Source of the DNA: Chloroflexota bacterium
Lineage (GTDB): Bacteria > Chloroflexota > Anaerolineae > Anaerolineales > Villigracilaceae
Direction of reading: 5' to 3'
Length of the DNA stretch: 64,000 nt
Assembly: GCA_013112685.1 (NCBI GenBank)
Contig: JABFGC010000002.1
Coordinates: 2,986,902 to 3,050,901 of the forward strand
How positions within the stretch are numbered: the first letter of the stretch is position 1; each line of letters opens with the position of its first letter. Positions 2,929 to 11,581 of the stretch are shown here, piece after piece. The notes under the pieces are model-generated. The model did not search any database, was not told the DNA's origin, and was given only the letters and a program-made list of their open reading frames with translations. The position numbers were made by a program, and so were the translations under genes.

Positions 2929-2957
2929 TTGGCGCAAATTGTGCCAGAAGGTATAAT
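2929..2957 (+). promoter_or_regulatory. Sigma-70-type promoter before the AT-rich lipoprotein pair
   Basis: TTGGCG (2929-2934), a 17-nt spacer, and TATAAT (2952-2957). Transcription would start near 2964, leaving a very short leader before the ATG at 2974. This argues against a TTG start at 2929, which would lie inside the promoter. Confidence 0.6.
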
Positions 2958-2973
2958 TTACTCATTGAAAAAC

Positions 2974-4056
2974 ATGTCTTTTATTCAAAAACTTTGTCTG
3001 TTAATACTTAGCGCAGTTGCATTAATTGCAGTAAGCACATCAATTGGGTACACATACCTGACATTAGGGATTCCTAAACAATTTTCTACAGAAACCAAAT
3101 GCGCCTTAATTGGATCAGGTGAATGCTTTCAATCAGAGAGTTTCTTGCAAATGCAGGTAACTCAAACAAACTCTACATCATCGAATTCTTCTCAAGATAT
3201 TATTTCTCCTACCTCTCAACCAGTATCAATTAATTTTGAAATCGCACCTACAATAATATATCCAACAGCCTTCCCTACATTTCCAAGCACAATTCAAACG
3301 AACACCCCAACAACAGAGAATCTAATTTCAAACCCTGCTAACACTATTCCCACCGAAGATTGGCGTGAATTTCCACCCGTACCTGAACTTTCCCCTAATG
3401 CTAAAAGAATTTTAACAAACATCATAACAAACCGCTATCTTGACACGCATACTTTTGTTAAAGTTGGGGATTGTCATATGGAGAGTGGCATTTTTTTAAG
3501 TGGATATGTCAAAGGTTCCTATCGTATACCCGAGGGATTGGAAAATACTGTAGACTGGTATTCACAAAGCATGGTGACAGACAATATAACCGCAGTTAGT
3601 GGTTATGGAATTAATACGGTTTTAGACCCAGCCTACGCACTCACAAAAGGTCATGAACAGTGTTTCATTAATGAGACTCCATTGGATTGTGAGTTACGAA
3701 TAAAACAACCAAGTTTAGTGCTTATTGCAATGGGTACAAATTGGATACCTAATGGCGAAGAAAGTTTTGAAAAGCATCTAAGAGTAGTTGTTTCTAGAGT
3801 ATTAGAAACAGGAGCACTGCCTATTCTCGCAACAAAAACAGATAATTTGGAAGGCAATTGGAAGATAAACCGCGCAATTGCTCAGGTTGCTATAGACTTT
3901 GATATACCATTAGTAAACATTTGGAGTGCAATGCAAGATTTACCTAACCAAGGATTAAGATCTGATGGATTTCATTTGACAGGGGACGGATGGTTACGAA
4001 ACAGTTCAACATGGCTTAAAACACTTGAGAATGTCTATCAAATAGTATCGCAATAA
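2974..4056 (+). CDS. Membrane-anchored SGNH-like protein with GDC in block I (paralog 1)
   Basis: A 360-residue extracytoplasmic protein. An N-terminal hydrophobic anchor (about residues 5-30) is followed by a Ser/Thr/Pro-rich linker to ~130 and a globular domain. The domain reads as SGNH-like: VKVGDCHMESG at block I with Cys where the Ser nucleophile normally is, LIAMGTNW at block III, and SDGFHLTGDGW at the His block. Two further Cys (QCFINETPLDCEL) are shared with the paralogs at 4069 and 8405. The gene is AT-rich against its GC-rich neighbours and is followed 12 bp later by its tandem paralog, which suggests acquisition by transfer followed by duplication. The ATG at 2974 is preferred over the in-frame TTG at 2929. 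Substrate unknown; a role in the acylation locus is inferred from position. Confidence 0.7.
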   Translation: MSFIQKLCLLILSAVALIAVSTSIGYTYLTLGIPKQFSTETKCALIGSGECFQSESFLQMQVTQTNSTSSNSSQDIISPTSQPVSINFEIAPTIIYPTAFPTFPSTIQTNTPTTENLISNPANTIPTEDWREFPPVPELSPNAKRILTNIITNRYLDTHTFVKVGDCHMESGIFLSGYVKGSYRIPEGLENTVDWYSQSMVTDNITAVSGYGINTVLDPAYALTKGHEQCFINETPLDCELRIKQPSLVLIAMGTNWIPNGEESFEKHLRVVVSRVLETGALPILATKTDNLEGNWKINRAIAQVAIDFDIPLVNIWSAMQDLPNQGLRSDGFHLTGDGWLRNSSTWLKTLENVYQIVSQ

Positions 4057-4068
4057 GGAGGAAATCTA

Positions 4069-4980
4069 ATGAATCGTTTGGGGTTTATATTGATGACTTT
4101 GCTAATAGTAAGTTGTCAGATTTCAAATAGTACTCAAACCAACTCTCCTAATATGGAAATATTCTTCACCCCAACCATTAGGGCGGGTTACACTTCCACA
4201 CCTTTACCCATTTACACTTCGACTTCAACATTTACACCTACTGTACAATCTACCTCCACGCCAGATACTCGGCTTACCTCTCATTATTGGAGGGAATGGG
4301 ATTCTGTTCCAGATCTCTCCCAAAGTGCAAAAAATATTTTACGTTTGGCAGTTGAGTATTCAGAACTTGATTTACATACATTTAGTAAAGTCGGCGACTG
4401 CCAAATGACATGTGAAACTTTCTTAGGTGGATATGCAAATGGAAAATACCCTGTTCCACCAGAGTTCAAGGAAACTGTTGTATGGTTTTCTGAAAGCATG
4501 ACGGCAAATAACGTAACTGCTGAGAGAGGTTTAGGAGTGAGTTCAGTTCTTAATCCTATGTTTGCATTATCTGCGGGTTACAACCAATGCTTAAGAAATG
4601 AGTCTCCTTTAGACTGTGAACTGCGTACCCGCCGCCCCATTATTGTGCTAATTGGCATGGGCACAAATTGGATACCCAACGCTGAAATTAGCTTTGAAAA
4701 ATACTTAAGAAGGATTGTTGACACCATACTAGAAACTGGCGCGCTCCCGATTCTTGCGACCAAGGCAGATAACGTGGAAGAAAACTGGAAACTTAATGAG
4801 GCAATTGCACAGGTTGCTTACGACTATGATTTGCCCCTTGTAAACGTATGGCGCTCCGTTCAAGATTTACCAGGACGCGGAATAGAGAGAAAGATTTATT
4901 TGACTCCTGACGGTTGGATGCGTCGTAATTATGTTTGGCTTGCTACACTAGAAAATATTCGTCAAGAAATAGTGAGATAA
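4069..4980 (+). CDS. SGNH-like lipoprotein with GDC in block I (paralog 2)
   Basis: A 303-residue lipoprotein: the signal peptide ends in the lipobox LLIVSC, a Thr/Pro-rich linker runs to ~75, and then comes the same domain as the 2974 gene. Key blocks are FSKVGDCQMTCETF, VLIGMGTNWIPN and YLTPDGWMR; here the DxFH block is altered, so the catalytic His appears lost. It has the same shared Cys pair (NQCLRNESPLDCEL). The ribosome binding site AAGGAGG lies 6-7 nt before ATG. It is AT-rich and in operon with the previous gene. Loss of the His makes independent hydrolase activity doubtful; it may bind or present substrate. Confidence 0.7.
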   Translation: MNRLGFILMTLLIVSCQISNSTQTNSPNMEIFFTPTIRAGYTSTPLPIYTSTSTFTPTVQSTSTPDTRLTSHYWREWDSVPDLSQSAKNILRLAVEYSELDLHTFSKVGDCQMTCETFLGGYANGKYPVPPEFKETVVWFSESMTANNVTAERGLGVSSVLNPMFALSAGYNQCLRNESPLDCELRTRRPIIVLIGMGTNWIPNAEISFEKYLRRIVDTILETGALPILATKADNVEENWKLNEAIAQVAYDYDLPLVNVWRSVQDLPGRGIERKIYLTPDGWMRRNYVWLATLENIRQEIVR

Positions 4981-5110: not shown

Positions 5111-5131
5111 ACTTAAATCATGGAGGAACCT

Positions 5132-5518
5132 GTGCGCACTAAATTAATCATCCTCATGCTCGCCTTGAGCATTCTCCTTTCCGCTTGCGGGGCATCAACT
5201 ACAAGCGGAGCGACAACTGCCGTCGAAGGCTACATCACCGCGCTTGCGACCAAAGACCAAGCCGCCCTCATCTCCAACTCCTGCGCCGACTGGGAAGATG
5301 ATGCCCTGATCGAACTCGACTCCTTTGCCCTCGTCGAAGTCACCGTGGACGGAATGTCCTGCGCCGAATCCGGAACCGACGGCGACAAAACCCTCGTGGA
5401 TTGCATCGGCACGCTCAACATGAGCTACAACGGCGAACCCCAATCCCTCGACCTCGCCGACCGCACCTACGAAGTCATCGAACAAGACGGGGACTGGCTC
5501 GTCTGCGGTGTTCGATAA
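5132..5518 (+). CDS. Small NTF2-like lipoprotein
   Basis: 128 residues with the lipobox LLSACG, then a compact domain beginning VEGYITALATKDQ, the opening helix pattern of NTF2/DUF4878-like lipoproteins, and ending EQDGDWLVCGVR. The GTG at 5132 is chosen because GGAGGA lies just upstream and the reading from it gives a textbook signal peptide; an ATG at 5120 would overlap that binding site. It stands between the GDC lipoproteins and the DltX-like gene. It is probably an extracytoplasmic binding or accessory protein of the acylation locus; no catalytic residues can be named. Confidence 0.65.
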   Translation: MRTKLIILMLALSILLSACGASTTSGATTAVEGYITALATKDQAALISNSCADWEDDALIELDSFALVEVTVDGMSCAESGTDGDKTLVDCIGTLNMSYNGEPQSLDLADRTYEVIEQDGDWLVCGVR

Positions 5519-5521
5519 ACC

Positions 5522-5590
5522 GACCATAGACGATGGACCGCGGACGATGGAAAAGATCGTCTATGGTCCATCGTCAATCGTCTATCGTCC
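5522..5590. repeat. Dispersed repeat of the 'CCATAGACGATGG / CGTCTATGG' type, copy 1
   Basis: An inverted arrangement of ACCATAGACGATGGACC and GGTCCATCGTCAATCG around a short centre. Related copies lie at 8335-8398 and 9665-9737, all inside the acylation locus, and form long hairpins in the transcript between genes of one apparent operon. Confidence 0.7.
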
Positions 5591-5692
5591 ATGAAAGAAA
5601 ACCTCCTCGCCCTCCTCCTCTGCCTCATCCTCATCGCCCTCGTCATCTTCACCGCAGACAGCAGCCCGACGTGGATCTATCAAGGCTTCTAA
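5591..5692 (+). CDS. dltX-like: DltX-like acyl-relay microprotein
   Basis: A 33-residue protein. It has a two-residue charged start (MKEN), one membrane helix (about residues 5-22), and a C terminus that ends in PTWIYQGF with Tyr30 four residues from the end. As I recall, Gram-positive DltX proteins are about 50 residues with one helix and end in an aromatic-I-Y-x-x-F motif whose Tyr carries the D-alanyl group between DltB and DltD. Length, topology, final motif and position all match: the stop TAA is at 5690-5692 and the MBOAT start is at 5693 with no gap. The leader contains AG-poor sequence, so translation may depend on coupling. To my knowledge such a protein is not described in Chloroflexota, which are thought to lack teichoic acids. 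Confidence 0.75.
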   Translation: MKENLLALLLCLILIALVIFTADSSPTWIYQGF

Positions 5693-7126
5693 ATGGCGCT
5701 TGAAAACATCCTAATTCTCGCCGCCGCCTCGCTCCTCTGGGCAGCAACCTTCCGCAACCACGGCAGGACGTGGTTCATGCTCATCGCCAGCGTCGTCGTC
5801 ATCTTCTGGCTGCAACCCGCCCTCCCCATCCGCGGCGCCGACTTCTTCACGCCCCTCGCCACCCTCGTGCTCGTCGTCCTCACCTGGTTCATCACCGCCG
5901 CCGACGAAACCCGCAAACAGCGCAAAAACATCATCATCCTTCTTGTCGTCGCTGGCGTCGTCCTCCTCCTCAACCTGGCACGCTTCCTCCCCGCCGACTT
6001 TCAACTCTTCACTGCCTCGCGCCCCCCTCAACTCGAAACGACTCTTCTTATCTTTTTGGTGACAGGACTGACGCTGTTAGCGTTATCTCGTCTGACACGT
6101 TTCAGCGCTTCTTTCTTAACGGTGGGTCTGGTTCTAACCATCGGGCTTTTTCTCGCGCTGAAAGTTCCCGCCCTCACCTACTGGACGGCTTACTTCCTGC
6201 GCTCACTGAGCGGACAAAATGTTTACGCATCACGCATTACGGATTTCGCATGGCTGGGCTTTTCCTACGTCGCCTTCCGACTCATCCACACCATTCGAGA
6301 TAAACAATCCGGTCGCTTCCCCTCCGTAGACGTGGGCGAGTTCATTACCTACGTCATCTTCTTTCCCGCCTTCACCGCCGGTCCCATTGACCGCCTTGAA
6401 CGTTTTATCAAAGATTTACGCGCTCCCTTTGCAGGTCTGAACCTTGAAGCCTTCTACTTCGCAGGTCAACGTCTGCTGATTGGCTTGTTCAAAAAATTTG
6501 TCATCGCTGATGCTTTAGCACTCATCGCCCTGAACGACACGAATGCAACCCAGGTTACTTCAGCGTTCTGGATGTGGGTCATCGTCTACGCCTACACCTT
6601 CCAAATCTACTTCGACTTTAGCGGCTACACCGACATTGCTCTCGGCATCGCGCAACTACTTGGAATCAAACTGCCCGAGAACTTTGCCTCGCCCTATCTC
6701 AAACCCAACCTGACCCAATTCTGGAACAACTGGCACATGACGCTTACCCAGTGGTTCCGCGCTTACTTCTTTAATCCCATCACCCGCTGGCTCAGGTCTT
6801 GGCAAAAACCGATGTCCATGCCAATGATGATTCTGTTGACGCAAGTTGCTACCATGGTGCTGATCGGCTTCTGGCACGGCGTGACATGGAACTTCACCCT
6901 CTGGGGCTTGTGGCACGGACTTGGACTCTTCATCCACAACCGCTGGAACGACGCCACCAAAACCAAAGCCGCCGCTTGGGCAACCACGCCAACAAAACAA
7001 GCCATCCTCCACATCAGCGGCATCCTGCTCACCTTCCATTATATGGCAATCGGCTGGATCTTTTTTGCATTATCATCGCCTGCTATTTCATGGCAAGTGA
7101 TTTTGAAATTGTTTGGAGTTAATTAA
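5693..7126 (+). CDS. DltB-like MBOAT O-acyltransferase
   Basis: A 477-residue protein of about 11-12 membrane segments. Family landmarks are FPAFTAGPIDR, IYFDFSGYTDIALG, QFWNNWHMTLTQWF with the first conserved His, and IGFWHGVTWNFTLWG with the catalytic His. It would accept an acyl group from a carrier protein on the inside and move it to the DltX-like Tyr or an SGNH partner outside. It starts at the base after the DltX-like stop, and the SGNH protein follows at 7232. The carrier protein and ligase of the same locus (9414, 9738) support the assignment. DltB is the closest functional model, but the acyl group is unknown. Confidence 0.9.
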   Translation: MALENILILAAASLLWAATFRNHGRTWFMLIASVVVIFWLQPALPIRGADFFTPLATLVLVVLTWFITAADETRKQRKNIIILLVVAGVVLLLNLARFLPADFQLFTASRPPQLETTLLIFLVTGLTLLALSRLTRFSASFLTVGLVLTIGLFLALKVPALTYWTAYFLRSLSGQNVYASRITDFAWLGFSYVAFRLIHTIRDKQSGRFPSVDVGEFITYVIFFPAFTAGPIDRLERFIKDLRAPFAGLNLEAFYFAGQRLLIGLFKKFVIADALALIALNDTNATQVTSAFWMWVIVYAYTFQIYFDFSGYTDIALGIAQLLGIKLPENFASPYLKPNLTQFWNNWHMTLTQWFRAYFFNPITRWLRSWQKPMSMPMMILLTQVATMVLIGFWHGVTWNFTLWGLWHGLGLFIHNRWNDATKTKAAAWATTPTKQAILHISGILLTFHYMAIGWIFFALSSPAISWQVILKLFGVN

Positions 7127-7224
7127 TGTCGTTGCGAGGAGGGTGTTCTTCCCGACGAAGCAACCTCCCAATTATCAGGAGATTGCTTCGGGCAAAGAGC
7201 AAGAGCGCCCTCGCAATGACATGA
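7126..7224. repeat. Dispersed REP-like palindromic element, copy 3
   Basis: ATGTCGTTGCGAGGAGGG ... CGACGAAGCAACCTCCC and AGGAGATTGCTTCGGG ... GCGCCCTCGCAATGAC. It lies between the MBOAT and SGNH genes of one operon. Confidence 0.85.
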
Positions 7225-7231
7225 AACTCTT

Positions 7232-8338
7232 ATGAATCAACCCATCAAACCCCTCAACGTCTTCATCAAGGGATTGCTCTTATTCTCCCTCTTCAACCTC
7301 GTCATCGCTGCGTGGCAGCCGAGGGTTGGACAATTCTCGTTATACAACGTCATCTACCCGGGGCGGGAGCGACTTCCCTTCGGTGAGAACCCCAAGCAAT
7401 CTTATAACCTCAGTCTCTTCGACCTCGATGCGAGGTTCGCTTCGCATGTCATCGCTGGCACGCCTAAAGCGGACAATGAATTTCGCGTGGTCATCGTTGG
7501 CGATTCATCAGTGTGGGGAACCTTGCTCAAGCCGGACGAAACTTTAGCAGGGCAACTCAACGCGGATAACCTCAACGCCTGCGGGAAAAATGTCCGCGCG
7601 TATAACTTGGGGTATCCGACCATATCACTGACCAAAGATGTAATGCTGCTTTCGTATGCAAAGCAATACGCCCCCGACCTCGTCATCTGGATGACCACGC
7701 TCGATGCGTTCCCGCTGGAGAAGCAGACGTCCACGCCGCTGGTGGCTCACAACGAGGAAAAAATTCGGGAACTGGCGACCAACTACCAGTTAAGAGTCGA
7801 GGCGGATGATCCCAATTTCGTAAAAAAATCCTTTTGGGAGAAAACGTTCATCGGGGATCGTCGTTCATGGGCAGACCTTATCCGCCTGCAAATCTACGGC
7901 GTGATGTGGGCAGCGACGGGCATTGACCAGTTCTATCCGGACGATTACGAGCGCGCGCAAACCGACTTTGAAGCCGATGAAAGTTTCCACGACTTTACGC
8001 CACCCGATTTGAACGAAGAGGGCTTGGCGTTGAACGCGCTGGAGGTGGGCTTCCGCGTGGTGGGTGAAACACCCATGCTGATCGTAAATGAGCCGATGTT
8101 AATAAGTTCGGGCGCGAACAGCGACATCCGCTATAATTTTTTCTACCCCCGCTGGGCGTATGACGATTACCGCGAAATCATGACGGCGTTGAGCCAACGC
8201 AACGATTGGACGTATGTGGACTTATGGGACATCGTGCCTGCAAATGAATTTACCAACAGCGCGATTCACCTCACGCCTGCGGGAGAGAAATTGCTGGCGG
8301 AAACTCTCACGCCGTATATTCTTGAAAATTGTAGATGA
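7232..8338 (+). CDS. DltD-like SGNH protein
   Basis: 368 residues: an N-terminal anchor (about 10-28) and an extracytoplasmic SGNH domain. VVIVGDSSVWG is block I with the nucleophile Ser, NLGYPTISL is the second block, LVIWMTTLDAF is the central strand, and NSAIHLTPAGEKLLAE holds the catalytic His. The same fold and topology are found in DltD and AlgJ, which take the acyl group from the MBOAT side and place it on the polymer. It follows the DltX-like/MBOAT pair, separated by a palindromic repeat. The ATG at 7232 has only weak ribosome-binding complementarity. A simple esterase role is the alternative. Confidence 0.78.
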   Translation: MNQPIKPLNVFIKGLLLFSLFNLVIAAWQPRVGQFSLYNVIYPGRERLPFGENPKQSYNLSLFDLDARFASHVIAGTPKADNEFRVVIVGDSSVWGTLLKPDETLAGQLNADNLNACGKNVRAYNLGYPTISLTKDVMLLSYAKQYAPDLVIWMTTLDAFPLEKQTSTPLVAHNEEKIRELATNYQLRVEADDPNFVKKSFWEKTFIGDRRSWADLIRLQIYGVMWAATGIDQFYPDDYERAQTDFEADESFHDFTPPDLNEEGLALNALEVGFRVVGETPMLIVNEPMLISSGANSDIRYNFFYPRWAYDDYREIMTALSQRNDWTYVDLWDIVPANEFTNSAIHLTPAGEKLLAETLTPYILENCR

Positions 8339-8398
8339 CGATAGACGACGGACGACAGACCATGGTCGATGGTCTATCGTCCGCGGTCTGCTCATAGG
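8335..8398. repeat. Dispersed 'ACGATAGAC' repeat, copy 2
   Basis: ATGACGATAGACGACGG ... CCATGGTCGATGGTCTATCGTCC. It forms a hairpin between the SGNH gene and the third GDC lipoprotein and belongs to the family at 5522-5590. Confidence 0.65.
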
Positions 8399-8404
8399 AG
8401 ACCA

Positions 8405-9334
8405 ATGAAAGCACGTCAACTTTTTATTTTATCTATCATATTGCTTGCGGCTTGCACATCCGCACCCACAGCAACATCTCAACCAGAAAGCCAATCCACA
8501 TCCACACCCAAAGCGACTGAAACCGAAACGGCAATTGCCGCCACCGAAGAATCCGCGCCGACCCCACACCCAACGCTCGCGCCCGACGAATGGAAATCCC
8601 TGCCCATCGTGCCGACCGTGACCGACACCGCGCGCGAAATCTACAAACGCGGACAGGAACTCGGCAGAAACCCGAATGCCTTCTCAAAGGTTGGCGATTG
8701 CCAGACCAACACTGGTTTCTATCTCGTGGATTTCGACCACGAAGACTGGTACAGCCTCGGCGAGGAATACGCCTACTTGCAGGAAACGATTGATTATTAC
8801 GAAGGCTCGTTCTCGCGCACCAGCCTCGCCATGCGGGACGGATATAACGTCGCCGCGATTCTGACCCCATTACGGGCTGACCCGAAACAATGCGAAAAAG
8901 GCGAAAGCCCGATTGCGTGTGAGTTCCGCTTGCACAACCCCAGCATTGCCATCATCAGTCTTGAAACAAATTTCAACGGACGCCCCGCCGATGACTACGG
9001 CAAGTACATGCGCCAGATCATTGAATATTCGATTGAACAGGGAGTTGTTCCCATCCTCGCCACCAAAGGCGACAACGTCGAAGGCGACTACAGCATCAAT
9101 GCCGAGATCGCGGAAATTGCCGTAGAATACGACATTCCGTTGTGGAACTTTTGGGCGGCGCTTCAGCCCTTGCCCAATCAGGGACATGACATTGAATTTA
9201 ACGACGGCTTCCACCTCTCGTTCTCGCGCAACTTTTTTGATAAGCCCAAGAACATGCTCAGCGGCTGGCCCTGGCGCAACCTCACGGCGTTGCAGGCGCT
9301 GGATGCGGTGAGGAGAGGGTTGAGTGAAAAGTGA
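8405..9334 (+). CDS. SGNH-like lipoprotein with GDC in block I (paralog 3)
   Basis: 309 residues with lipobox LLAACT, a Thr/Pro/Glu linker to ~60, and an SGNH-like domain: FSKVGDCQTNTGF (Cys at the nucleophile place), ISLETNFN at block III, and FNDGFHLSFS at the His block, here intact. The paired Cys of the paralogs are present (KQCEKGESPIACEF). Unlike paralogs 1 and 2 this copy has the base composition of the region, so it is probably the resident form. ATG 8405 follows AGGAGACC. It lies in line between the DltD-like protein and the acyl carrier protein, so a part in the relay or in deacylation is plausible. Substrate unknown. Confidence 0.72.
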   Translation: MKARQLFILSIILLAACTSAPTATSQPESQSTSTPKATETETAIAATEESAPTPHPTLAPDEWKSLPIVPTVTDTAREIYKRGQELGRNPNAFSKVGDCQTNTGFYLVDFDHEDWYSLGEEYAYLQETIDYYEGSFSRTSLAMRDGYNVAAILTPLRADPKQCEKGESPIACEFRLHNPSIAIISLETNFNGRPADDYGKYMRQIIEYSIEQGVVPILATKGDNVEGDYSINAEIAEIAVEYDIPLWNFWAALQPLPNQGHDIEFNDGFHLSFSRNFFDKPKNMLSGWPWRNLTALQALDAVRRGLSEK

Positions 9335-9335
9335 T

Positions 9336-9402
9336 CAGTCAACAGTGATCAGTGAACAGTGATCAGTAGTCAGTGATCAGTTGTCAGTATTCAGTGAACA
9401 GT
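9336..9402. repeat. Degenerate tandem repeat CAGTGATCAGT
   Basis: Six to seven degenerate copies of a 10-12 bp unit (GTGATCAGTCAACAGT, GTGATCAGTGAACAGT and so on) fill the gap before the carrier-protein gene. No coding function is seen. Confidence 0.8.
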
Positions 9403-9413
9403 GAAAAGGAAAA

Positions 9414-9662
9414 ATGATGTCCACCGAAACCATAAACGCGCTCGCAAAGTTCATCGCAGAAAAAATCCTCAAGCAGCCGAACAAAGTCATCGCTGCGGAT
9501 GAAGCGCTCATCTCCAGCGGGCTGATCGACTCGTTCAGCCTGATGGACCTGGCGCTCTTCGTCGAAGACACCTTCGGCGTGCGCATCGAAGACACCGAGT
9601 TGAACGCGGATACGTTCGATAATCTCGATCAACTGGCTGCGTTGATTTCTTCGCGCAAGTAA
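9414..9662 (+). CDS. Acyl carrier protein (DltC-like)
   Basis: 82 residues (81 if the second ATG at 9417 is used), a single PP-binding domain. The 4'-phosphopantetheine attachment Ser is residue 40 in GLIDSFSLMDL, followed by the helix LALFVEDTFGVRI. A purine-rich AAAAGGAAAA site precedes the start. The protein would be loaded by the ligase encoded 75 bp downstream and would deliver acyl groups to the MBOAT at the membrane. No phosphopantetheinyl transferase is in the window. Similar carriers serve DltC, exopolysaccharide and polyketide systems; here the operon favours the first kind. Confidence 0.88.
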   Translation: MMSTETINALAKFIAEKILKQPNKVIAADEALISSGLIDSFSLMDLALFVEDTFGVRIEDTELNADTFDNLDQLAALISSRK

Positions 9663-9664
9663 AA

Positions 9665-9737
9665 AAATGACGATAGACCATAGACGATAGACCATAAGGT
9701 TATCCATCGTCCGTGGTCCATCGTCTATCGTCTAACC
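9665..9737. repeat. Dispersed 'ACGATAGACCATAG' repeat, copy 3
   Basis: ATGACGATAGACCATAG ... CCGTGGTCCATCGTCTATCG form an inverted pair between carrier protein and ligase genes. It is the same family as 5522-5590. Confidence 0.7.
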
Positions 9738-11498
9738 ATGACCACTCTCCCCAACCTCCTTCAACAAAGTTATCGGGAAGTCCCCGATAAAACCAGCGTC
9801 ATCCTCCAGCACGCGGGACAGCCCGACAAGCCGCTCACCTACCGCGACCTGATTCGCGGCGCGAACCGTTACGCTCTCACCTACGCCCGCGAGGGAATCC
9901 AACCTGGCGAGGTGGTCATTCTGATCCTCCAGCACGGCGAAGACCTCGTCTATTCGTTCTGGGGCGCGATCCTGCACGGGGCAATCCCCTCCATCATGCC
10001 GTTCCTGACGGAGAAACTCGCGCCCGAAAAATACCGCGCCGACCTCGCTTCGCTTATCTCCATCACCAAGCCGACCACCATTGTCACCTATCCTGAATTT
10101 GAAGCCGAAGTGCGCGGCGCGCTGGTGGCAGGCGACTCCGTTCGCCATGTGATTCTCACGGATCAAATCGAAGCGGAGACAGAACCGAACTTTGAATCGC
10201 TGCAAGGATTCAAATCCACGCCCGAAGATATCGTCGTGCTGCAACATTCATCGGGGACGACGGGCTTGCAAAAAGGCGTGGCGCTTTCGCATCGCGCGGT
10301 GCTGAATCAAATGGACGCCTACGGCAAAGCCATCCGCCTCGGCCCCGCCAGCGACGTGATTGTTTCGTGGCTGCCGCTCTATCACGACATGGGGTTCATC
10401 GCATGTTTCATCATGCCGATCCTTCTGCGCATCCCGCTGGTCAAAATGTCCCCGTTCGATTGGGTGCGCGCGCCTTACCGTCTCCTGCAATCCGTTTCGC
10501 AATACAAAGGCACGCTCACCTGGCTGCCGAATTTTGCCTACAACTTTTGCGCGCACAAAATCCGCGGACGCAACCTCGAAGGCGTGGACCTCTCTTCATG
10601 GCGCGCCGTCATCAACTGCTCCGAGCCGGTTCACGTGGAAAGCCACGATCTCTTCTACGAAAAATTTTCCGCGTATGGCTTGAGGAAGTCCGCGCTGCAA
10701 ACGTGTTATGCGATGGCGGAAAACGTCTTCGCTGTGACTCAAAGCCCGCTGGATGGAATCCCCGTCCTGGATGAGATTGACCGCGAGACCTTCATGACCA
10801 AACGCCTCGCGACTCCGCCCAAGCCTGGTCAGCCCACCATAAAGATGACTTCCTCCGGGCGTCCCCTGCCTAACGTGAAGATCCGCGTGGTGGATGAATC
10901 GCTCAACGACCTGCCCGAACGCGCCGTCGGTGAGATCGCCGTGCAAAGCGACTGCATGTTGACCGAATACTTCAACCGCCCCGACGCCACCGAAGCCGCC
11001 ATCAAGAACTTACCAGCTCAAGGCGGCGTACCCATGCTGGGCACTTTCCCCGCCGCCGAGGACGGCAGTGGGAGCGTTTCAGCAAATAGCTGGTATTTGA
11101 CAGGCGATTACGGTTACATTTCCAACGGCGAGTTGTATGTTTCGGGAAGAAAGAAAGACCTCATCATCGTCGGCGGCAAGAACGTGTACCCGCAGGATTT
11201 GGAGGCGCTTGCCAGCGAAGTGCCCGGCGTCCACAAGGGACGAACCGTCGCCTTCGGCATGTACGACGAAGAGGAAGGGACTGAAGAGGTGGTCATCATC
11301 GCCGAAGCGGATTCAACCGACCCGTCCAAGATGGAGGCGATAGCGGATGCCATCCGCAAACACGTTACCAAAAGTTCAGCCATTGCCCTGCGTCATGTCA
11401 AAGTAGTGGACGATAAATGGATCATCAAGACTTCGAGCGGCAAGACGGCGCGCTCGGCGAATAAGGAAAAGTTCTTGAAGGAACTGGGAGCAAGTTGA
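9738..11498 (+). CDS. Fatty-acyl-AMP-ligase-like adenylating enzyme
   Basis: 586 residues of the ANL (acyl-AMP-forming) superfamily. Motif A3 is LQHSSGTTGLQKGVALSH. The FAAL-typical stretches are VSWLPLYHDMGFI, INCSEPVH and CYAMAENVFAVTQ. The C-terminal domain has WYLTGDYGY, the hinge SGRKKDLIIVGGKN, and the late catalytic Lys in KTSSGKTARS. FAALs activate a carboxylic acid as the adenylate and pass it to a carrier protein rather than to CoA. In the Dlt model it takes the place of DltA, but the FAAL character points to a fatty or other carboxylic acid, not D-alanine. It is the last gene before a clear terminator. Confidence 0.88.
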   Translation: MTTLPNLLQQSYREVPDKTSVILQHAGQPDKPLTYRDLIRGANRYALTYAREGIQPGEVVILILQHGEDLVYSFWGAILHGAIPSIMPFLTEKLAPEKYRADLASLISITKPTTIVTYPEFEAEVRGALVAGDSVRHVILTDQIEAETEPNFESLQGFKSTPEDIVVLQHSSGTTGLQKGVALSHRAVLNQMDAYGKAIRLGPASDVIVSWLPLYHDMGFIACFIMPILLRIPLVKMSPFDWVRAPYRLLQSVSQYKGTLTWLPNFAYNFCAHKIRGRNLEGVDLSSWRAVINCSEPVHVESHDLFYEKFSAYGLRKSALQTCYAMAENVFAVTQSPLDGIPVLDEIDRETFMTKRLATPPKPGQPTIKMTSSGRPLPNVKIRVVDESLNDLPERAVGEIAVQSDCMLTEYFNRPDATEAAIKNLPAQGGVPMLGTFPAAEDGSGSVSANSWYLTGDYGYISNGELYVSGRKKDLIIVGGKNVYPQDLEALASEVPGVHKGRTVAFGMYDEEEGTEEVVIIAEADSTDPSKMEAIADAIRKHVTKSSAIALRHVKVVDDKWIIKTSSGKTARSANKEKFLKELGAS

Positions 11499-11503
11499 AA
11501 ACG

Positions 11504-11538
11504 AGAGAGCGCACCTTAAACGGTACGCTCTCTTTTTT
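11504..11538 (+). terminator. Rho-independent terminator of the acylation locus
   Basis: Arms AGAGAGCG (11504-11511) and CGCTCTCT (11526-11533), one mismatch, then ACC/GGT, loop 11516-11521, followed by a run of six T. It starts 6 bp after the ligase stop codon. Confidence 0.85.
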
Positions 11539-11581
11539 CGCCGGTACCCACACAGGATGCACAGTCGAATGATCAGAGCGA

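Follow-up and report, generated by a model that had tools for sequence, protein, structure and literature searches.

Gram-positive bacteria decorate the teichoic acids of their walls with D-alanine by means of the Dlt system (DltA-DltC-DltB-DltX-DltD). In it, the membrane-bound O-acyltransferase (MBOAT) DltB moves D-alanine from the carrier protein DltC to the Tyr of the hexapeptide FXYXXF in the microprotein DltX, from which it passes to DltD (PMC12148441). In PatA, this motif is fused to the MBOAT itself, and acetyl-coenzyme A (acetyl-CoA) is the donor (PMC12148441). The MBOAT/SGNH pathways other than Dlt have been stated to have neither a carrier protein nor a microprotein (PMC12148441). 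In this study, a six-gene cluster encoding such components was analysed in a Chloroflexota bacterium (class Anaerolineae, order Anaerolineales, family Villigracilaceae; GenBank assembly GCA_013112685.1). The analysed stretch, hereafter the window, comprises 64,000 nucleotides of contig JABFGC010000002.1 (G000:C2:2986902-3050901), and the cluster occupies its positions 5591-11498. The source genome (4.6 Mb, 78% complete) has Anaerolineales metagenome-assembled genomes as near relatives. As judged from its sequences, the cluster is probably a Dlt-type transmembrane acyl relay that is charged by a fatty acyl-AMP ligase (FAAL). Its components are as follows, each with the evidence for its assignment in brackets:

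5591-5692, + strand: DltX-like microprotein with a single transmembrane helix and the C-terminal motif W-I-Y-Q-G-F (conservation; motif FXYXXF, PMC12148441)
5693-7126, + strand: DltB-like MBOAT without a C-terminal shuttle helix (matches to PF03062, LTA_dltB and DltB in the PDB)
7232-8338, + strand: transmembrane-anchored SGNH protein (SGNH2) with GDS Ser92 and His346, a putative DltD-like transferase (conservation; AlphaFold model)
8405-9334, + strand: SGNH-fold lipoprotein with GDC and DxxH and the lipobox LLAAC (homologue alignment; AlphaFold model)
9414-9662, + strand: acyl carrier protein (ACP), phosphopantetheine site Ser40 in D-S-F (PF00550)
9738-11498, + strand: FAAL-type fatty acyl-AMP ligase, the predicted charger of the carrier protein (NCBIfam; PDB match)
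11504-11540, + strand: intrinsic-terminator-like hairpin followed by a T-run (RNA folding)

A preliminary description of this DNA had listed the six genes in a single direction, closed by one terminator, and all of them were located on the + strand at or near the positions it gave, together with the hairpin and its T-run. The hairpin folds at -22 kcal/mol (z -4.3); a simple terminator scan missed it because of a mismatch in the stem, and RNA folding detected it. A promoter scan of the cluster gave no signal above chance, and most of the genes are set apart by gaps of 66-105 bp, several of them repeat-bearing. A shared transcript of the six genes is therefore only a candidate.

The microprotein (MKENLLALLLCLILIALVIFTADSSPTWIYQGF, 33 amino acids) consists of a single hydrophobic helix with the tail DSSPTWIYQGF; the ATG of the MBOAT at 5693 comes directly after its stop codon. 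Seven positions (M1, E3, P26, W28, I29, Y30 and G32) are invariant among 22 sequences; they include the W-I-Y-x-G of the shuttle motif, and conservation in the protein is highest in the shuttle hexapeptide. The microprotein of locus L217 (loci are numbered with the prefix L) ends in FIYQGF versus WIYQGF in the window. WIYQGF fits FXYXXF, and Tyr30 is proposed, by analogy, to be the acyl carrier. A Pfam search found no family above its cut-off, and neither Pfam nor NCBIfam gave a DltX match, short proteins being hard for such models.

The MBOAT scored 68 bits against PF03062 and matched DltB in the PDB at E 7e-45; on these matches it is clearly a homologue of DltB. Its score against the NCBIfam model LTA_dltB (TIGR04091) was 217 bits, below the cut-off of 375, which places it outside the DltB equivalog. 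The protein stops after the MBOAT core and is without the C-terminal helices that bear the shuttle motif in PatA. The equivalents of His289 and His336 of Streptococcus thermophilus DltB are His348 and His395, and both of these are invariant among 23 sequences. The hallmarks of an MBOAT-SGNH relay in the broad sense are thus present, namely the invariant MBOAT His348 and His395, the invariant microprotein Tyr30 and an SGNH partner with a Ser nucleophile.

The carrier protein matched PF00550 with 30 bits and scored 17.7 bits against the DltC model (TIGR01688), below the cut-off of 52.35. For the ligase, the top NCBIfam model was a fatty acyl-AMP ligase (344 bits), and other FAAL models scored 259 and 249 bits; the DltA model (TIGR01734) scored 18.7 bits at a cut-off of 559.85. 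The best PDB match was the Legionella FAAL 3kxw (E 9e-69), with which the stretch from CYAMAEN to SSG aligns nearly free of gaps; this comparison covered 3kxw alone, with no CoA ligase as contrast. By these scores the ligase is closer to FAALs than to other adenylate-forming families, which agrees with the FAAL-type rather than DltA-type ligase proposed in the preliminary description. The word 'fatty' is here an expectation from the family, because FAALs activate acids of many lengths (PMC11837247).

SGNH2 has an N-terminal helix anchor and keeps GDS; its Ser is invariant in 68/68 and its His in 70/70 homologues. In a fold comparison, its AlphaFold model (predicted local distance difference test, pLDDT, 89) matched DltD 6o93 with Z 14.2 over 273 residues, and among the leading solved-structure matches DltD gave the longest alignment (Z about 14, 263-280 residues). 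No DltD family match was found for SGNH2 at E 1 in Pfam and NCBIfam.

In the lipoprotein at 8405-9334, the nucleophilic Ser is replaced by Cys (GDC). This GDC was found in 29/29 homologues of the first set (the window protein counted) and in two paralogues in the window. In a larger set, Cys occurred in 59/64 homologues and Ser in five, which are more distant; the DxxH block is mostly retained. The AlphaFold model (pLDDT 84) has an SGNH fold, with Z 15.9 to the acetyl xylan esterase 7ddy and 15.4 to TesA. The protein therefore has the fold of the SGNH superfamily and lacks its Ser nucleophile; 'SGNH-like lipoprotein', as it had been called earlier, was apt, and the change from Ser to Cys had gone unreported. 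The Ser/Cys swap and the retained His argue for a working nucleophile, and we take this Cys-SGNH lipoprotein to be a putative transferase or esterase, accessory because it is absent from loci L065, L067 and L068. Several Cys-SGNH paralogues may occur in one locus, and homologues were seen in L036-L066 and in other loci. At L061:4747-6720 and L066:4878-6824, the open reading frames (ORFs) of Cys-SGNH lipoproteins reach about 650 amino acids, with a long C-terminal extension that appears repeat- or propeller-like by eye. A shallow literature search found no description of a natural Cys-SGNH protein of such kind.

The MBOAT query matched 120 of the 150 genomes of the family. Loci were fetched from 20 places and then from 20 more; in these, the microprotein almost always adjoins a DltB-like MBOAT, followed by SGNH2, often by the Cys-SGNH lipoprotein and mostly by ACP and FAAL. 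Over all loci, some of which end at contig ends, 63 DltB-like MBOATs could be assessed. The microprotein lay within 400 bp of the MBOAT in 61 of them, and SGNH2, ACP and FAAL were nearby in 57, 48 and 46, respectively. As exceptions, the microprotein of L213 lies about 2 kb upstream of the MBOAT with two SGNH lipoprotein genes between them, and that of L040 is a partial match (residues 2-18). Microprotein matches at L212, L214 and L221 (contig end) had no MBOAT in the fetched stretch.

Across the 150 genomes, the microprotein occurs in 94, the FAAL clade in 113 and both in 89, and five hold the microprotein alone (Fisher p 1e-12 for co-occurrence, kinship ignored). The FAAL is linked downstream on the same strand in 62 of the 89 genomes with both. 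In a phylum-wide sample of 400 genomes, a hidden Markov model of the microprotein matched 34, which without exception belong to the class Anaerolineae and fall into several of its families, and clusters elsewhere in the order and class keep the identical gene order. A scan of named genomes with the FAAL alignment gave 80 loci, including 37 from Chloroflexota (L106-L142) at identities down to 44%, many of which show the order microprotein-MBOAT-SGNH-ACP-FAAL. The preliminary description had made its proposal depend on conservation of the order in related genomes, and the order is conserved there (microprotein with 61/63 MBOATs, linkage in 62 genomes). Chance is ruled out as the origin of the cluster because seven microprotein positions are invariant and dozens of genomes share the order.

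Relatives in which the motif is fused to the MBOAT were also found, beginning with the window itself, which holds the following features upstream of the cluster:

1-670, + strand: 3' end of a second MBOAT, of PatA type, with a fused motif (whole gene L004:14175-15572, 465 amino acids)
1018-1698, + strand: SGNH partner of the fused MBOAT, C-terminal part as listed (full-length homologues, 338 amino acids)
2929-4056, + strand: Cys-SGNH lipoprotein paralogue (GDC)
4069-4980, + strand: Cys-SGNH lipoprotein paralogue (GDC)
5120-5518, + strand: small lipoprotein of 132 amino acids (weak NCBIfam match to the Rv0361 C-terminal domain; upstream position conserved)

The second MBOAT ends in SSDFIYFQF, a fused shuttle motif. 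This MBOAT and its SGNH partner precede the microprotein cluster by a few kb, and both architectures thus occur in one genome. Most MBOATs found without a microprotein bear the motif at their own C-terminus, and 0/63 microprotein-type MBOATs do. FAALs stand beside fused-motif MBOATs in other phyla, namely in Lindowbacteria (L144, FIYFQF), Ignavibacteriae (L145, FLYFQF) and Nannocystis (L153, FVYQQF), with a small carrier-protein ORF between FAAL and MBOAT at L144 and L145. The Anaerolineae FAAL clade likewise adjoins fused-motif MBOATs (L186-L188, and L189, which ends in PNLYAKF). A split form was seen in one Polyangiaceae genome (L150:9673-14101), comprising ACP, FAAL, a motif-less MBOAT of 388 amino acids, a small membrane protein with the C-terminus FIYGNF and an SGNH protein. 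In the FAAL tree, split-linked, fused-linked and unlinked Anaerolineae FAALs are intermixed; the rooting is poor, and the intermixing alone was used. Since ACP-FAAL was found beside split and fused MBOATs, it is a module that accompanies MBOAT-SGNH relays of both architectures. It is neither exclusive to the microprotein form nor an invariable member of the gene set.

From these parts with their family relationships, from the conserved residues and the motif, and from how the genes are ordered and co-occur, we infer the chemical steps, the acyl chain and the acceptor as follows. The FAAL would adenylate a fatty or fatty-like carboxylic acid and load it onto the Ser40-phosphopantetheine of the dedicated carrier. 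The acyl-carrier protein would dock at the cytoplasmic face of the DltB-like MBOAT, which, via the His395 site, would move the acyl group to Tyr30 of the microprotein motif WIYQGF, outside the membrane. Acyl-Tyr30 would pass the group to Ser92 of SGNH2, and SGNH2 would esterify a polymer or glycolipid of the envelope; the Cys-SGNH lipoprotein may act as an accessory second transferase or as an esterase. It is plausible that the acceptor is other than teichoic acid, as the preliminary description had also suggested. A CDP-glycerol-transferase-like match in the genome is marginal (PF04464, 21.4 bits, or 23.9 with its neighbours, at a cut-off of 22.1). Chloroflexota have neither lipopolysaccharide (LPS) nor BAM genes, and the chemistry of their layered envelopes is undefined (PMC13319060). 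A more specific extension, which we regard as possible but doubtful, is that in LPS-less Anaerolineae the FAAL-ACP-fed relay attaches long-chain acyl groups to an envelope polymer and so lipidates the outer layer, with a Cys-SGNH thioester relaying them to distal acceptors.

Several observations weigh against a FAAL-charged relay of this kind. The hydrophobic residues on helix HC of DltB that bind DltC (Met302, Val305, Ile306 and Met309; PMC11035591) are replaced here by Asn361, Thr364, Arg365 and Arg368, and the carrier interface is not kept in detail. Asn361, Arg365 and Arg368 are themselves invariant in the alignment, and an Asp of the carrier, five residues past the phosphopantetheine Ser, shows at least 97% conservation among 27 sequences. 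Together with this Asp, the Arg residues could form a salt-bridge docking surface; another possibility is that they bind the phosphate of the pantetheine. The ligase scores 341 bits with PRK07768, a model named long-chain-fatty-acid-CoA ligase, versus 344 bits with the FAAL model. In SGNH2, the canonical Asp of DxxH is not conserved, and Ser or Thr stands at that position. With regard to distribution, 24 of the 150 genomes hold the FAAL without the microprotein, some with the FAAL beside a fused MBOAT, and several members of the genera g17 and g3 keep ACP-FAAL apart from the MBOAT, near housekeeping genes. The preliminary description had named an unrelated biosynthetic cluster as the home of ligase and carrier as a refuting outcome; the pair instead goes with the MBOAT locus, with the qualification that in these two genera it often lies elsewhere in the genome.

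This distribution, and the fact that FAALs are best known from polyketide synthase (PKS) and nonribosomal peptide synthetase (NRPS) pathways (PMC11837247), could point to an arrangement of neighbours only, in which ACP-FAAL supplies a different pathway, for lipids or natural products, and the MBOAT, microprotein and SGNH protein use an acyl-CoA, for example acetyl-CoA as in PatA. We consider this unlikely, given the linkage in 62/89 genomes and also in other families of the class, the finding that ACP-FAAL also adjoins fused-motif MBOATs, both in Anaerolineae and in other phyla, and the fact that a carrier protein is the acyl donor of DltB, the sole characterised microprotein-type MBOAT (PMC12148441). 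The ORF lists around the examined unlinked pairs, inspected by eye and not by family search, showed no PKS or NRPS gene; on the same inspection, a dedicated natural-product cluster was rejected. True D-alanylation or aminoacylation, with DltA encoded elsewhere and the FAAL annexed, would account for the DltB-like MBOAT and DltX-like microprotein as a Dlt signature, and the genome does hold other adenylation proteins. It is nevertheless very improbable, because no DltA above the cut-off was found in the source genome, itself only 78% complete (best 128 versus 559.85 bits), the carrier falls below the DltC cut-off, SGNH2 has no DltD family match, and the FAAL co-occurs with the microprotein. Similarly remote is a purely structural or regulatory microprotein, with the MBOAT acylating a lipid or polymer directly and no acyl-tyrosine step. 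A regulatory role of DltX was proposed in earlier structural work on DltB (PMC11035591), but the shuttle hexapeptide is the best-conserved part of the microprotein and is carried in fused form by most MBOATs lacking a microprotein, and acyl-Tyr was shown for PatA and described for DltX (PMC12148441).

Other features of the locus were recorded. The upstream small lipoprotein (25 bits against NF051431) has 27 homologues in the first-fetched loci, nearly all directly 5' of the microprotein, and is likely an accessory part of the system. At L207 (5276-5734) and L213 (5051-5473), from distant Anaerolineae families, similar small lipoproteins precede the microprotein. Tandem and inverted runs of a ATAGACGATNGACCA-like unit, with 11 matches in the window versus 0.22 expected, lie in the cluster gaps at 5526-5592, 8341-8377 and 9666-9735. 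Another short repeat at 9335-9395 differs from this unit and has 44 matches in the genome. On the - strand, positions 1878-2579 encode a multi-helix membrane protein of 233 amino acids, which resembles polyprenol or phytol kinases by eye and gave no match in Pfam and NCBIfam.

Should the acyl group prove to be a fatty acid, Chloroflexota cells would have in this cluster a pathway devoted to the lipidation of some component of their outer face, and the Ser-to-Cys change in the SGNH lipoprotein gives a simple way to probe an unusual thioester step. A literature search for FAAL together with MBOAT found no paper. Among known systems, the cluster resembles Dlt in its adenylating ligase, carrier, DltB-like MBOAT, shuttle-motif microprotein and membrane-anchored SGNH transferase, with the same order of roles, and differs in having a FAAL instead of DltA and an additional Cys-SGNH lipoprotein. 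By family models, its carrier is not DltC and its SGNH protein not DltD, and no DltX model matches its microprotein. Dlt membership was rejected part by part: the ligase, the carrier, the MBOAT and SGNH2 each fail to reach the Dlt models, and the microprotein is without any model above its cut-off; by these models the cluster is Dlt-like and not a member of Dlt. It shares the MBOAT, the SGNH protein and the FXYXXF motif with PatA/PatB, whereas PatA has no carrier, ligase or microprotein (PMC12148441) and the cluster has all three. As in the stand-alone FAAL and ACP JamA/JamB, the FAAL adjoins its ACP, for a predicted passage from acyl-AMP to acyl-ACP; however, the known pairs of that type feed PKS/NRPS lines (PMC11837247), and the neighbours here are a membrane acyltransferase and SGNH proteins. 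The cluster contradicts the published claim that non-Dlt MBOAT/SGNH pathways are without carrier and microprotein. A carrier and a microprotein stand here with a non-Dlt ligase, and the same ligase-carrier pair accompanies fused MBOATs; the dichotomy between Dlt and non-Dlt pathways therefore fails.

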